From Planctomycetia bacterium (lineage in GTDB: Bacteria; Planctomycetota; Planctomycetia; Gemmatales; HRBIN36): a stretch of 64,000 nt of DNA. Positions 10,780 to 60,010 of this stretch are shown here, one piece after another (positions within the stretch are counted from its first letter, which is position 1; each line of letters begins with the position of its first letter). Below the pieces are notes generated by a model. It was not told the origin of the DNA. It saw only the letters and a list, made by a program, of their open reading frames with translations, and did no database searches. The translations under genes were made by a program, and so were the position numbers. The DNA lies in contig JAEUIE010000055.1 of assembly GCA_016795155.1 (NCBI GenBank), forward strand, positions 1 to 64,000, written 5' to 3'.

Positions 10780-12024
10780 ATGGATAATATGCAAACTCTT
10801 CGTACGCTTTTTCATGGATGGAAAGCACTTTTTCTTAAACATCCATACTGGTTACCGATCAGCCTCTGGTTGATTCTGGTTATTGTCGTCAGCGTTCGTG
10901 CAACTCTTTCACCAACCAAGGGAACTGTCTACCCAACATTTGCTTTGGCAGGTCATACTTTTGCCAAGGGGGAACCGGTTTATGGCAACTACGAAGCCCA
11001 TTTCCGCTACTCACCCGTCTGGGCTGCGTTTTTCAGTGTCTTCAATCTGATCCCGGACCAGATTGCCAGCATCGTCTGGCGACTGCTGAATCTGGTAATT
11101 CTCACTTGGGGTGCTTACCGTTTTCAAAAGTGTTTCTTTCCCGAATGGTCTGATCTTGCCTGTTCCATCTGGTGGGTCGGGCTGTTCCCGTTTTGCATAG
11201 GCTCCTTCAACAATGCCCAGGCGAATATGCTACTGCTCGGCCTGCTCATGGGCAGTGTGGCGACCTTTACAGCCAGACAATGGACCCTGTGTGGAATTCT
11301 CCTGGCTATTGCCATCAGCCTGAAAGTTTATCCGTTTGCCATGGCATTGCTTCTTCTCCTGATAAGACCGAAAGAGTTGTTGCCTCCACTTGTCGTCTCC
11401 TTGCTGCTGATCGCAGGGATACCTTTTGCGTTTCATGATTCTGCCTATGTCATCGATCTATACCGCGATTGGATCCACAGTTCGCTGGGTGATACTAAGA
11501 TCGAAATGGATTTAAAGAATTCCAACCGCGATATCTGGTTACTGATCAAAGCCTACTCGCTCCCCATCAGTCACCGTGCCTACCAAGTCATTCAATTGGC
11601 TGCAGCGGCGTGCCTCGCCTTCTGGACATGGCGGAACCGCAGCACGTTATTGAAAACCCCTCCTTCGAGAACTAAGTACGTCTGGCTCTTCTGTCTGACT
11701 ATCACCTGGATGCTGGTCTTCGGTCCGGCATCAGAATCGTCCACGTATGCACTGTTTGCTCCACTGGCGGCGATCGGCGTCGTGATGGCTATCTTCACAC
11801 AACAGACTCGAGCAACTACCTTGCTCATCTGCCTGGGGGTTATCGTCGGACTTCTCTCACATTTCAGTTCCGCGTTCTCTTTTGGACGAGAGCTACATCA
11901 CTATGGCATCCATCCGATCGGGGCTTTATTGATGCTGGTCGCGGTGCTACGGATTCGTTTCGATGCACCATGGCGGAATACTTTACCCAGCTTAACAGGT
12001 ACTTCTCCGACGGTACCCATTTGA
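10780..12024 (+). CDS. Polytopic membrane protein, GT87/DUF2029-like mannosyltransferase family
   Basis: About 414 residues from the ATG at 10780 (a TTG three bases earlier is possible). There are about ten hydrophobic helices. The first extracytoplasmic loop contains YEAHFRYSPVWAAFF; the aromatic RYSPxxA pattern is typical of GT87 (DUF2029) polyprenyl-phosphate-sugar-dependent glycosyltransferases. A later SLKVYPFAMALLLL segment is also characteristic. The family adds mannose or related sugars from lipid carriers on the outer side of the membrane. Acceptor and donor are unknown here, and no other glycosylation genes lie beside it. Confidence 0.7.
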   Translation: MDNMQTLRTLFHGWKALFLKHPYWLPISLWLILVIVVSVRATLSPTKGTVYPTFALAGHTFAKGEPVYGNYEAHFRYSPVWAAFFSVFNLIPDQIASIVWRLLNLVILTWGAYRFQKCFFPEWSDLACSIWWVGLFPFCIGSFNNAQANMLLLGLLMGSVATFTARQWTLCGILLAIAISLKVYPFAMALLLLLIRPKELLPPLVVSLLLIAGIPFAFHDSAYVIDLYRDWIHSSLGDTKIEMDLKNSNRDIWLLIKAYSLPISHRAYQVIQLAAAACLAFWTWRNRSTLLKTPPSRTKYVWLFCLTITWMLVFGPASESSTYALFAPLAAIGVVMAIFTQQTRATTLLICLGVIVGLLSHFSSAFSFGRELHHYGIHPIGALLMLVAVLRIRFDAPWRNTLPSLTGTSPTVPI

Positions 12025-23413: not shown

Positions 23414-23662
23414 CTATCGCTCCCGTAATTCCTGCCCAAACTGCAACAAATAACCATTGTTATCGTAGATGCCGAATTCGCGCATGCCGTAGTCGAAGTT
23501 TTCGATTTCATAACAGACTTCAGCCTGTTCGCGGAGGTGTTCCCAGAGAGTGTCCACGTCTACCACGGTAAAGTAGAGTGAGCCGGTGAAGGCTGGTTCC
23601 ACGTCGCCTTCGTGTTCGTTGGGAGCCATCCGCGCTGTGGCGAGGTCAGGAAACCTCGCCAC
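23414..23662 (-). pseudogene. VOC (glyoxalase-like) gene missing its N-terminal half
   Basis: The readable part (about 70 residues) contains APNEHEGDVEPAFTGSLYFT and DFDYGMREFGIYDNNGYL with LQFGQ. This is the second half of a small vicinal-oxygen-chelate protein of the glyoxalase/bleomycin-resistance type. The first half, with its metal-binding His, is absent. The frame enters directly from a perfect palindrome at 23631-23668, so insertion or recombination of that repeat has removed the 5' part. The family normally has about 120-130 residues. Any product would start inside the repeat and would not fold as a VOC monomer. Confidence 0.7.
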
Positions 23663-23668
23663 AGCGCG
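23631..23668. repeat. Palindromic repeat, CAGGAA loop (H1)
   Basis: A perfect 16-bp stem pairs 23631-23646 (ends GTGGCGAGGT) with 23653-23668, around the loop CAGGAA. It lies exactly at the broken 5' edge of the VOC remnant. Hairpins with the same loop and other stems occur at 24153-24178, 24231-24256 and 24766-24789. Confidence 0.85.
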
Positions 23669-23679
23669 TGGTTATCCAT

Positions 23680-49104: not shown

Positions 49105-49860
49105 ATGAACGAACGCCTGCGTCACGAACAACACTTTCATGATGAGCAGGCCCAGGAACGCCGCCAGGGCTGGGAAGCAAACCCAGCCTTGTTGCGTTTT
49201 CCTGCCGAAGATTATCTTGACCATGAACCGTGGGTACGCCCGGCACTCGCCAGACTTGGCAACCTGCAATATAAGCGAGTTGTGGACTTTGGCTGCGGGC
49301 ACGGCATGGCGTCAACCAGCCTGGCACGCATGGGTGCCCATGTAATCGCTTTCGATCTTTCTTCAGGCTACGTGCACGAAGCAGTGTGCAGAGCGAAAAG
49401 CAACCAAGTCGCAATTGAGGGTGTAGTGGCTGATGGCGCTCATTTACCTTTTCGAGATGGCAGTATGGACGCCATCTGGGGTGTCGCCATACTGCATCAT
49501 CTGGAACTGACCCATGCAGCTAAGGAAATCAAACGAGTGCTGGCACCTGGCGGACAGGCCGTTTTCTGTGAGCCTTGGGGAGGCAACCAACTCCTAGAAC
49601 TGGCCCGGCGTTACCTGCCCTACGCCGGTAAGGAACGGACTGCCGATGAAAGACCGTTGACTGCGGACGATCTACGCCAGATTCAAACAGTATTTCCCAG
49701 TGCTGAATTACAGTTCGTGCAGTTGTCGGGCATGATCCGCCGAGCATGGAAAAACTGTCCGTTGCTTCCCATGCTCGATCGATTGGACGGTGCCATTTTA
49801 CGCCACTGGCTAACACTCCGGCCCTGGTGCCGGTATGTTGTAGTGCATTTAATCAAGTAG
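49105..49860 (+). CDS. Class I SAM-dependent methyltransferase
   Basis: 251 residues. Motif I is RVVDFGCGHGMASTSLARMG (about residues 53-72), motif II is HVIAFDLSSGYVHEA, then VVADGAHLPFRDGSMDAIWG and the late motif RVLAPGGQAVFCEPWGGNQ. This is a typical small-molecule Rossmann methyltransferase of the Methyltransf_11 type. The substrate is unknown. It is coupled to the DUF1080 gene and convergent with the thioredoxin-fold gene, the stops lying four bases apart. Confidence 0.87.
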   Translation: MNERLRHEQHFHDEQAQERRQGWEANPALLRFPAEDYLDHEPWVRPALARLGNLQYKRVVDFGCGHGMASTSLARMGAHVIAFDLSSGYVHEAVCRAKSNQVAIEGVVADGAHLPFRDGSMDAIWGVAILHHLELTHAAKEIKRVLAPGGQAVFCEPWGGNQLLELARRYLPYAGKERTADERPLTADDLRQIQTVFPSAELQFVQLSGMIRRAWKNCPLLPMLDRLDGAILRHWLTLRPWCRYVVVHLIK

Positions 49861-49863
49861 TTT

Positions 49864-50370
49864 CTACCGTTCCTTCAACAGCAACTTGATCTTGTCATGC
49901 ATGATGGTATCGCCCTTGGCGCCCTGCCACTTCAGTTCACCATCCCACCGGAAACGACCATTGCCTTTCTTGTCAATGAGATAAACACTGGGCCAGATGC
50001 GGTTGCCGTACCGGTTCCAGTTCGCCTGGTTATTATCCACTGCAACAGGATGAGTCAGGCCGGCATCTTCCAGTTTCTTTTTCAGCTTGTCAATTTTGTA
50101 CTCAGTCTCGGTTTCAGGTGTATGAATACCGATGATGACCACTTCGCTATTCTTATAACGTTCCTGCACTTCCCTGTACCAGGGATAGTTTCGGACACAG
50201 TTGATTCAGCCGAATGCAAAGAAATGGACCACCACCACTTTGCCTCGCAGTTCCGAAAGCTTCAGCGGCTTGGAGTTGACCCATTCGGTCACTTTGTTGA
50301 ATTCCGGAGCGGGGGTTTTGAATTCTGCCTGCGGCGCAGCAAGCGATACCAGCAACACCATCGGTAACAT
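49864..50370 (-). CDS. Secreted thioredoxin-fold protein with in-frame TGA at the redox Cys: probable selenoprotein
   Basis: The ATG at 50370, with AGGAGA at 50378-50383, starts a signal peptide (MLPMVLLVSLAAPQA). The domain goes on with SELRGKVVVVHFFAFG, TGA (50206-50208, codon 55), then INCVRNYPWYREV and VVIIGIHTPETETEYK to the stop at 49864. Relatives of this fold read F-x-C-I-N-C here, so TGA replaces the first Cys and C58 is the partner (UxxC). Both sides are open and conserved in type, and no other lesion is seen. A hairpin at 50171-50185 could be a SECIS. With read-through the protein has 168 residues. The alternative is a nonsense mutation or read error leaving only the C-terminal part. 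Confidence 0.75.
50171..50185 (-). promoter_or_regulatory. Possible bacterial SECIS hairpin
   Basis: On the minus strand TCCCTG, loop GTA, CAGGGA form a perfect 6-bp stem. The loop starts with G, and 26 bases separate the TGA (50206-50208) from the loop. Known bacterial SECIS elements lie just downstream of the Sec codon with an apical loop roughly 16-37 bases away and a G at its start. It is coding, as expected of bacterial SECIS. Confidence 0.6.
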
Positions 50371-50575
50371 CAGCGTTTCTCCTGTAACCCTTGAGAAGTG
50401 AGAGTAAGGGCTTGTTGCAGAGGATTTGAAGTTTCTGCAACAATGATTGGTATCAATAAACTATGCCATCCCGGTTGAAGTTCCATATTAATTCTGTCAA
50501 TGATTGACTTCCACACCTTGATGGAGTGCAATGAGCACACTCCTGATCTTTACTCTCTGATGAGGTTCAGAAACG

Positions 50576-51721
50576 ATGGCCGCTAAACCCCTGCGTATTG
50601 GAATGATCGGTTACGGATTCATGGGTCGGGCTCATTCTAACGGCTATCGTAAAGTCGGGAATTTCTTTGATCTGAAACATCAGCCGGTTCTGCAGGCAGC
50701 CTGTGCCCGCAATGAACAGGCAGTCAAAGCGTTTGCTGACAAATGGGGTTACGCCAGCACTGAAACCGATTGGCGCAAGCTGGTCGAACGCAAAGACATT
50801 GATGCCATCGACATCTGCACCCCCAACAACACCCACAAGGAAATTGCTCTGGCTGCTGCAGCCAACGGCAAGATGATTCTCTGTGAAAAACCACTCTCCA
50901 TGAACGGTTCGGAAGGCCGTGAGATGGTGGCTGCTGTCGAAAAGGCCAAAGTGAAAAACATGGTCTGGTACAACTACCGCCGTGTGCCTGCGGTGACACT
51001 CGCCAAGCAACTGATTGACAGTGGCAAACTGGGCCGCATTTTCCATTACCGTGCCAAATTCCTGCAGGATTGGACCATCAGCCCCGATCTGCCTCAGGGT
51101 GGCAATGGCCTGTGGCGGCTCGATGTCGGCGCAGCTGGTTCCGGCGTAACAGGCGATCTACTCGCACATTGCATCGATACTGCCCTTTGGCTCAATGGCG
51201 ACATCAACACCGTCAGTGCCATGACCGAAACTTTCATTAAGGAACGGCAGCACAACCTCACTGGCAAGAAAGAAAAAGTGGGCATCGACGATGCCTGTGC
51301 ATTCCTGTGCCGCTTCAACAACGGCTCGCTGGCTACCTTCGAATCGACCCGCTATGCCCGGGGCCACAAGGCACTCTACACTTTTGAAATCAATGGCGAG
51401 CATGCCTCCATCGCCTGGGATCTACACGACCTGCACCGGCTGCAGTATTTCGATCATAGTGACGAAGGCATTGTCCGCGGCTGGAGAAGCATCCATGTCA
51501 CCGATGGCGACCACCCCTATATGGGCAAATGGTGGGTGCCTGGCTTACAGATTGGGTATGAACATTCCTTTGTCCACCAGGTTGCCGATTTCTGCGAAAG
51601 TCTGGAAACCGGCAAGCCAGCTATGCCCGATTTCCGCGATGCACTGCGGACACAGTATGTGTGTGATGCAGTGCTCGACTCAGCACGTGATGGAAAGTGG
51701 AATAAAGTTGAGCAGGTTTAA
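50576..51721 (+). CDS. Gfo/Idh/MocA family oxidoreductase, cytoplasmic
   Basis: 381 residues. [18 protein letters not shown] starts the Rossmann fold, [20 protein letters not shown] and [11 protein letters not shown] follow; the EKP Lys is conserved. The C-terminal lid has [20 protein letters not shown] with the active-site-like DLLAHCID. No signal peptide, unlike the family member at 19995-21539. It oxidises or epimerises sugars or inositols with NAD(P). Its stop shares one base with the start of the next gene. Confidence 0.9.
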
Positions 51722-58981: not shown

Positions 58982-59398
58982 TTAATATCCTCGCATTCTC
59001 GGACTAAACTTATTACCTTGTGATTCACCTAAGTAAAGCTTATTCCAATTGATTAACACGACAAAACCGAGAACTACCAATCCCAAAAAGAGTGGAATGA
59101 ACATCAGGCTCATTCCTGCTTCCACAGAATCCGCAGGGGAAATCACACAGAAAACAACACCAACGAAGGCTGACAAAGTAAAAGCTATACCACATACATA
59201 GCCAAGCAACTTAACCCATGGCTGTCTTGACCATCAATAGATACCCAGCACCAGTAGCCATCCCAATGCAGCAAAAATAGAGAGCACGATCGCAAATAAA
59301 GTGCTTCGCTCCCAGGCAGCGAACGACCATATGGTCACAACGATACCAACCAGGCCATGAAACCCGAGCATGAGTCCCATTCTTTGTTGTCGATCCAT
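58982..59398 (-). pseudogene. Four-helix membrane protein gene split by an in-frame TGA
   Basis: From the ATG at 59398 the frame gives 54 residues with two membrane helices (LMLGFHGLVGIVVTIW and FAIVLSIFAALGWLLVLGIY), then a TGA at 59234-59236. The same frame continues as WSRQPWVKLLGYVCGIAFTL with two more helices and a polar tail to 58982. In relatives of this type the stop would be expected to be an aromatic or Leu codon, so this is probably a nonsense mutation. There is no Cys partner, so selenocysteine is unlikely. A downstream TTG (59209) could start a separate product. Confidence 0.65.
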
Positions 59399-59410
59399 TT
59401 TTCTCACGGA

Positions 59411-60010
59411 TCATCCCTTCGGCTTCATCCGATGCTTCGTTCTCGGATCATCATCCAGTTCATCATCTTTCAGGTGCATGCCCTTCGTCCACGATTCTTC
59501 CGGAAAGCTGGTGGCATCTGCCAGCTCTTTATCAATGCCTGCAAAGGCTTTCATCCAGCGGGCTTGTTCCTCGGGGTTCACGGTAGGCGTTGATGTTGTT
59601 GATGGCGAAGGTGATTTCTGTCTTTCCAGCCAGTCGATGAACTGATCAGCCTTGATAGAGGTCGCCCGCTTGCGGGTAGTCGCTTCCACCAGGCGATGAT
59701 CCGAGGAAATAACTGTCAATTGTTTCGGCACATGGCACTGCGTGATGAGCCAGGCAATCAGGTCATCAGCTTCTTCCCGCCGTTTGGTGAAACGCACTTC
59801 AATGCCACGATAGACCCCATCACCTGGAGTGCGTGGAGGCGACTTGGCGGCATCAAACACCACGGAGCAGAATTTCGCTTTATCTCCCAGTCCATCAGCG
59901 AGCATTTCGAGCAGTTGCTGCCTGGCACGTTGCAAATCGCCTTCCCTTACCGGCGTTGGCACCATGCCCAGGCTGAACAGTACGTTGTAGCCATCAATCA
60001 GGGTTCGCAT
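59411..60010 (-). CDS. YacP-like NYN-domain ribonuclease
   Basis: 199 residues. TLIDGYNVLFSLGM carries the N-terminal Asp of the NYN/PIN-like fold, then CSVVFDAAKSPP, EEADDLIAWLITQ (second acidic pair) and LTVISSDHRLVEATTRKRAT. It matches the YacP/Rae1 family of endoribonucleases, which in Bacillus cuts mRNA on the ribosome. It lies five bases after the metallopeptidase-like gene and upstream of the split membrane gene. A Ser/Pro-rich stretch (residues about 133-148) precedes a charged C-terminal tail. Confidence 0.85.
   Translation of the reverse strand: MRTLIDGYNVLFSLGMVPTPVREGDLQRARQQLLEMLADGLGDKAKFCSVVFDAAKSPPRTPGDGVYRGIEVRFTKRREEADDLIAWLITQCHVPKQLTVISSDHRLVEATTRKRATSIKADQFIDWLERQKSPSPSTTSTPTVNPEEQARWMKAFAGIDKELADATSFPEESWTKGMHLKDDELDDDPRTKHRMKPKG

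Follow-up and report, generated by a model that had tools for sequence, protein, structure and literature searches.

A mid-gene TGA in a planctomycete thioredoxin-fold gene is very probably the selenocysteine codon of a secreted UxxC redox enzyme

We analyzed a 64,000-nucleotide stretch of planctomycete DNA (the window) and identified on its minus strand a thioredoxin-fold gene with a TGA codon in its middle. We hold with high confidence that this TGA is a selenocysteine codon and that the gene, far from being broken, encodes an intact secreted redox enzyme with the predicted active site Sec55-Ile-Asn-Cys58. The frame runs from an ATG at 50370-50368 to a stop at 49866-49864, and its translation, with the TGA read through, is 168 aa long. 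The sole in-frame stop is the TGA of codon 55, whose neighbors are HFFAFG on one side and INCVRNYPWY on the other. An earlier sequence-only reading of this DNA, which had placed a frame open on both sides of one TGA at 49864-50370, was therefore right in its coordinates. The parts of the gene are given in Table 1. We looked for a sigma-70-like promoter near the gene and found none.

Table 1. Features of the predicted selenoprotein gene in the window
Feature	Position	Strand	Description or basis
Predicted selenoprotein gene	49864..50370	minus	168 codons and stop; weak signal peptide, then DipZ/NHLRC2/ResA-like thioredoxin-fold domain with UINC active site
Predicted selenocysteine 55, first residue of UxxC	50206..50208	minus	TGA/Cys alternation in homologues and Sec machinery in the genome
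Cys58 (TGT), second/resolving Cys of UxxC	50197..50199	minus	Invariant column in the homologue alignment
SECIS hairpin UCCCUG-GUA-CAGGGA	50171..50185	minus	Fold, conservation and covariation in TGA homologues; 46/47 Cys homologues without the hairpin
Probable (weak) signal peptide MLPMVLLVSLAAPQA	50326..50370	minus	Sequence reading and ordinary signal peptides in homologues L023, L024, L025, and L028
Shine-Dalgarno-like AGGAGA	50378..50383	minus	7 nt upstream of the ATG; direct sequence reading

Two other minus-strand frames of the window were recorded. One, at 58988-59401, lies shortly downstream of the ORF at 59411-60010; it is membrane-protein-like, runs past a TGA at 59234-59236 (GIY*WSRQPW), and is not Sec-like in look. 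The other, at 23414-23671, resembles by eye the C-terminal portion of a protein of the VOC/glyoxalase type with no obvious complete start, and it may be a gene fragment.

When codon 55 was translated as a residue, the protein matched the Pfam domain AhpC-TSA (PF00578) with 52.8 bits (E 4.9e-14; cut-off, 26) and also scored over the Pfam cut-offs of Redoxin (PF08534; 45.8 bits) and Thioredoxin_8 (38.4 bits). The downstream piece alone reached 23.5 bits, which is below the AhpC-TSA cut-off, and the upstream piece alone had no match in Pfam. Because the joined frame matches and the separate pieces do not reach the cut-off, the halves on either side of the TGA are one domain. An AlphaFold2 model gave a thioredoxin fold (mean pLDDT, 91.3) that is continuous through residue 55, and this residue lies immediately before helix 56-60, the usual place of the active site. 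The invariant W126-P127 precedes strand 128-132 in the alignment and the model. The protein thus has both marks of a thioredoxin fold, namely, a [C/U]xxC where a helix begins and a Pro ahead of a later strand, and the Foldseek search was concordant. Mechanical ORF calling breaks the locus into a frame of 54 codons and a product of 101 aa that starts at an internal GTG (50169), which is exactly what would be seen if the gene made two separate proteins of these lengths. However, neither of them would contain a whole thioredoxin fold, Pfam does not recognize the upstream one, and the predicted fold is unbroken through residue 55, so that we give this explanation almost no credence.

The best match to the read-through protein was the C-terminal domain of DipZ of Mycobacterium tuberculosis (2HYX/5CYY), both by sequence (E 2.3e-29) and by fold (Foldseek E 7e-17; TMq, 0.85). 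The two have in common the fold and the active-site sequence, CINC in DipZ and UINC here. DipZ, however, has Cys at this site and also a membrane part and a further domain at its C-terminus, whereas the protein described here is predicted to be small and secreted and to carry Sec. The other nearest solved relatives in the sequence and fold searches were SOQ1, NHLRC2, YkuV, and ResA. Human NHLRC2 and plant SOQ1 have a Trx-like domain of the same type, but it is set within large multidomain proteins and the match is limited to it. The ResA/TlpA-type extracytoplasmic thiol-disulfide oxidoreductases are alike in fold and in the place of the CxxC, but they carry Cys where Sec is predicted here.

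Despite these similarities, no NCBIfam model scored the protein over its cut-off. The ResA model (NF002854) gave 59 bits against a cut-off of 170, and a ResA assignment was not adopted. The model of the ResA-like WAxxUGC selenoprotein (NF041054), which is likewise TlpA/ResA-like but has UGC rather than UxxC, gave 27.6 bits against 300. Since gene calling splits the gene and no NCBIfam model covers it over the cut-off, members of the family have probably been annotated as truncated proteins or missed. A function as a peroxiredoxin (AhpC/TSA) was also considered and ruled out, as UINC follows AFG without a TxxC or TxxU and only the broad Pfam domain matches. By motif, the predicted protein is no peroxiredoxin, because UINC represents the redox pair UxxC rather than TxxU. 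We read it as a predicted secreted UxxC thiol-disulfide oxidoreductase, apparently without a curated model.

The signal peptide claimed by the sequence-only reading is plausible but weaker than was implied, because its n-region lacks Lys and Arg. An ordinary signal peptide (MRLTKTFLAAFFIGILAAPISAQ) is present in the TGA homologue L023, and those of L024, L025, and L028 are likewise ordinary. Some homologues, Sec and Cys forms alike (e.g., L055, L057, and L059-L063), have an N-terminal extension of roughly 200 residues, so that the family has two architectures. The long form, in which this region, helical by eye, stands before the Trx domain, was noted in many homologues, including L057, L059-L063, L038, and L066.

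To compare codon 55 across the family, homologues were taken from 199 related genomes, the order's 102 genomes, 398 genomes drawn from across the class, and the GTDB contig collection, and 64 were kept after removal of duplicates. The codon was TGA in 17 of them and TGC or TGT in the remaining 47, with no other codon in any. The in-frame TGA therefore aligns with the redox-active Cys of the homologues, which carry CINC there, and both the alternation and the proposal that the TGA stands for the first Cys of a CxxC motif were borne out. None of the homologue matches listed had a second in-frame stop, and the several unrelated disruptions expected of a gene falling apart were thus not encountered among them. 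A close homologue was present in 107 genomes of the class-wide draw, and 13 of these had the TGA form. The distribution of the Sec form over a maximum-likelihood tree takes five changes, at least four of them forced by well-supported branches, so that Sec and Cys have replaced each other repeatedly (at least four times) in planctomycetes. The TGA-bearing proteins are a group scattered through planctomycete bacteria, with Cys forms close by: G003, which belongs to the same family as the genome of the window, has TGC, a broken hairpin, and a retained selA, and within one genus G396 has TGC and G380 has TGA.

This distribution bears on two explanations that do without selenium. The TGA could be a nonsense mutation in a gene under loss, an option that the sequence-only reading had kept alive and to which the stops in other frames of the window, e.g., the TGA of the orphan frame 58988-59401, lend some color. 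However, 17 genomes share this TGA at the same codon of a frame that is otherwise intact, the residues 3′ of it are conserved in the homologue alignment, and the changes in the downstream hairpin are compensatory. The orphan frame itself had no homologue in the 100 other genomes searched and so gives no evidence for the local decay of a conserved gene. We consider decay very unlikely. A sequencing error has in its favor that a single base separates TGA from TGC or TGT and that the assembly is a draft, but we regard it as extremely unlikely, because the TGA recurs in 17 separately sequenced and assembled genomes, one of them that of isolate K23_9 (L063), which is a single contig, and comes together with a hairpin that the Cys genes lack.

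The genome that contains the window (G000; 5.28 Mb, 97% complete, a draft of 68 contigs) was searched for the Sec machinery, and selA, selB, selD, and tRNA-Sec were all found over their cut-offs. The three protein genes scored 564, 402, and 366 bits, respectively, with selB adjoining selA on contig C59. The tRNA-Sec scored 70.7 bits, well above its gathering score of 47, and ARAGORN called it as tRNA-SeC with the anticodon TCA. By gene content, the organism should be able to insert selenocysteine. Its selD (L018; C12:77743-78672, minus strand) has an in-frame TGA at the active site (SCAG-U-AGK), trailed downstream by a hairpin, GCUCC-CGG-GGAGC, and UxxK is the position given for the selenocysteine-containing selenophosphate synthetase (PMC13188914). 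The SelD of this organism is therefore probably itself a selenoprotein, and a second gene of the genome thus points to Sec decoding.

Among the genomes tested, selA was over the cut-off in 16 of 17 TGA genomes versus 13 of 28 Cys genomes (p = 0.001), and outside the order of the window it was so in 9 of 9 versus 4 of 19 (p = 1e-4). The one exception among the TGA genomes, G071 (79% complete), has a tRNA-Sec of 68 bits. Two other TGA genomes, G380 and G283, both draft assemblies, have selA, and no tRNA-Sec was over the cut-off in them. In the gene neighborhood of one distant homologue (L063), no selenium-linked gene was seen.

Some other bacteria have reassigned UGA to Trp, and the codon could in principle be read here as Trp or Cys, by reassignment or suppression, with no selenium involved. 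However, UGA ends ordinary frames in the window, e.g., the ORFs ending at 12022-12024 and 59411-59413, and the TGA of codon 55 aligns with Cys, not Trp, in all non-TGA homologues. The Sec machinery is complete, and the SECIS-like hairpin shows covariation. The probability of such a recoding appears negligible to us.

The hairpin downstream of the predicted selenocysteine codon has the perfect 6-bp stem and the GTA loop that the sequence-only reading had described, but the distance of 26 bases given there is that from the TGA to the start of the loop, and the stem begins at 20 nt. Bacterial SECIS elements are limited to a loop of 3 to 9 nt with G in the first two positions, a stem of 4 to 16 bp, a spacing of 16 to 37 nt, and an MFE at or below -7.5 kcal/mol (quoted in PMC13188914). 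Our hairpin lies within all of these limits (3 nt, G first, 6 bp, 26 nt, and -9 kcal/mol). Its significance comes from the comparison of homologues and not from its folding energy, which is unremarkable alone: 50 of 200 shuffles matched the -9 kcal/mol (z, -0.74), and the comparison of the MFE with shuffles was not retained in support of the hairpin. Of all TGA triplets in the window, 2.6% have downstream of them, in SECIS geometry, a hairpin with 6 bp or more, and under synonymous recoding the 6-bp stem at its exact place had a P of 0.006. A 5- to 7-bp hairpin with a GUA loop at this fixed place was present in 14 of the 17 TGA genes versus 1 of the 47 Cys genes (Fisher p = 2e-10, for sequences that are related and not independent). 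The loose SECIS limits were discarded as a discriminator, since 9 of the 47 Cys genes pass them with some hairpin elsewhere in the interval.

Within the 15 TGA genes that have the main hairpin, three pairs were changed on both sides and none was kept by a one-sided change; one stem pair is U-A in eight genes and C-G in seven. The covariation score of these 15 related genes was above all 500 shuffles and every slid version. Unpaired cells occurred at the outermost pair in six genes and at the second outermost and the loop-closing pair in one gene each, and most changes in the stem are matched by one in the opposite arm. The codon over the 3′ arm of the stem is AAG or AGG only in the TGA genes versus any of 14 codons in the Cys genes. 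The hairpin of L024 has an energy of -6.4 kcal/mol, and that of L031, which has a 5-bp stem, a 5-nt loop (CGUAC), and a compensated change, is weak (-3.4 kcal/mol).

Two TGA genes on a separate branch, L038 and L066 (from G050 and G071), are without the common stem and have another hairpin, whose GUC loop begins 32 nt 3′ of the TGA and which may be a SECIS of separate origin. Such a different and more distant SECIS would mean that the element was gained a second time, along with an independent change from Cys to Sec. Among the Cys genes, the single one with a 5-bp GUA stem (L083) may carry a relic of a former SECIS, since in its genome (G278) no tRNA-Sec reaches the cut-off and selA is found below threshold only. 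An Rfam scan of positions 49500-50800, up to E = 5, gave no match; such bacterial SECIS elements need not match any Rfam family.

A 2026 inventory lists among its UxxC selenoprotein classes a Prx-like thiol:disulfide oxidoreductase (PF00578), a Redoxin family protein (PF08534), and a thiol-disulfide isomerase-like protein (cd02966) (PMC13188914). The predicted protein shares with the first two their Pfam domains, both over the cut-off, and the UxxC motif, and by domain and motif the gene falls within these known classes. The table of that inventory, compared by domain and motif only, does not name a UINC DipZ/NHLRC2-like planctomycete subfamily. Selenoproteins and Sec genes have been reported from planctomycetes, including the Sec genes of Gemmata obscuriglobus and Isosphaera pallida, although the selenoproteins have so far been reported in little detail (PMC4807772). 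Among the main texts of open-access papers, we found none that names a DipZ/NHLRC2-like UINC selenoprotein. The UINC proteins may thus form an undescribed DipZ/NHLRC2-type subfamily of thioredoxin selenoproteins, widespread in Planctomycetota, with two architectures, repeated exchange of Sec and Cys, and a SECIS gained anew in L038 and L066, a proposal that we regard as evenly poised.

Taken together, the Sec machinery, the TGA/Cys alternation, and the conserved, covarying hairpin support the earlier proposal of selenocysteine at codon 55 in what would be a secreted UxxC oxidoreductase. In the mechanism that we propose, SelB with Sec-tRNA would bind the GUA-loop hairpin just 3′ of UGA 55, and selenocysteine would be inserted there in place of termination; such SelB-dependent insertion is suggested by the Sec genes, by the conservation of the hairpin, and by the mechanism established for bacteria. 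The protein would be exported via its signal peptide, weak in this copy and ordinary in the four homologues named above. The selenolate of Sec55 would then be the attacking nucleophile on substrate disulfides, with Cys58 as the resolving thiol, roles that the fold and motif suggest by likeness to the CxxC of DipZ, ResA, and TlpA proteins.

The gene would add an exported UxxC oxidoreductase to the planctomycete selenoproteins. The close TGA/Cys pairs, those of the same genus (G380 and G396) and of the same family (the gene described here and that of G003), offer a natural comparison of the benefit of selenium to the enzyme, and the same pairs also suit the study of how a SECIS appears or decays.
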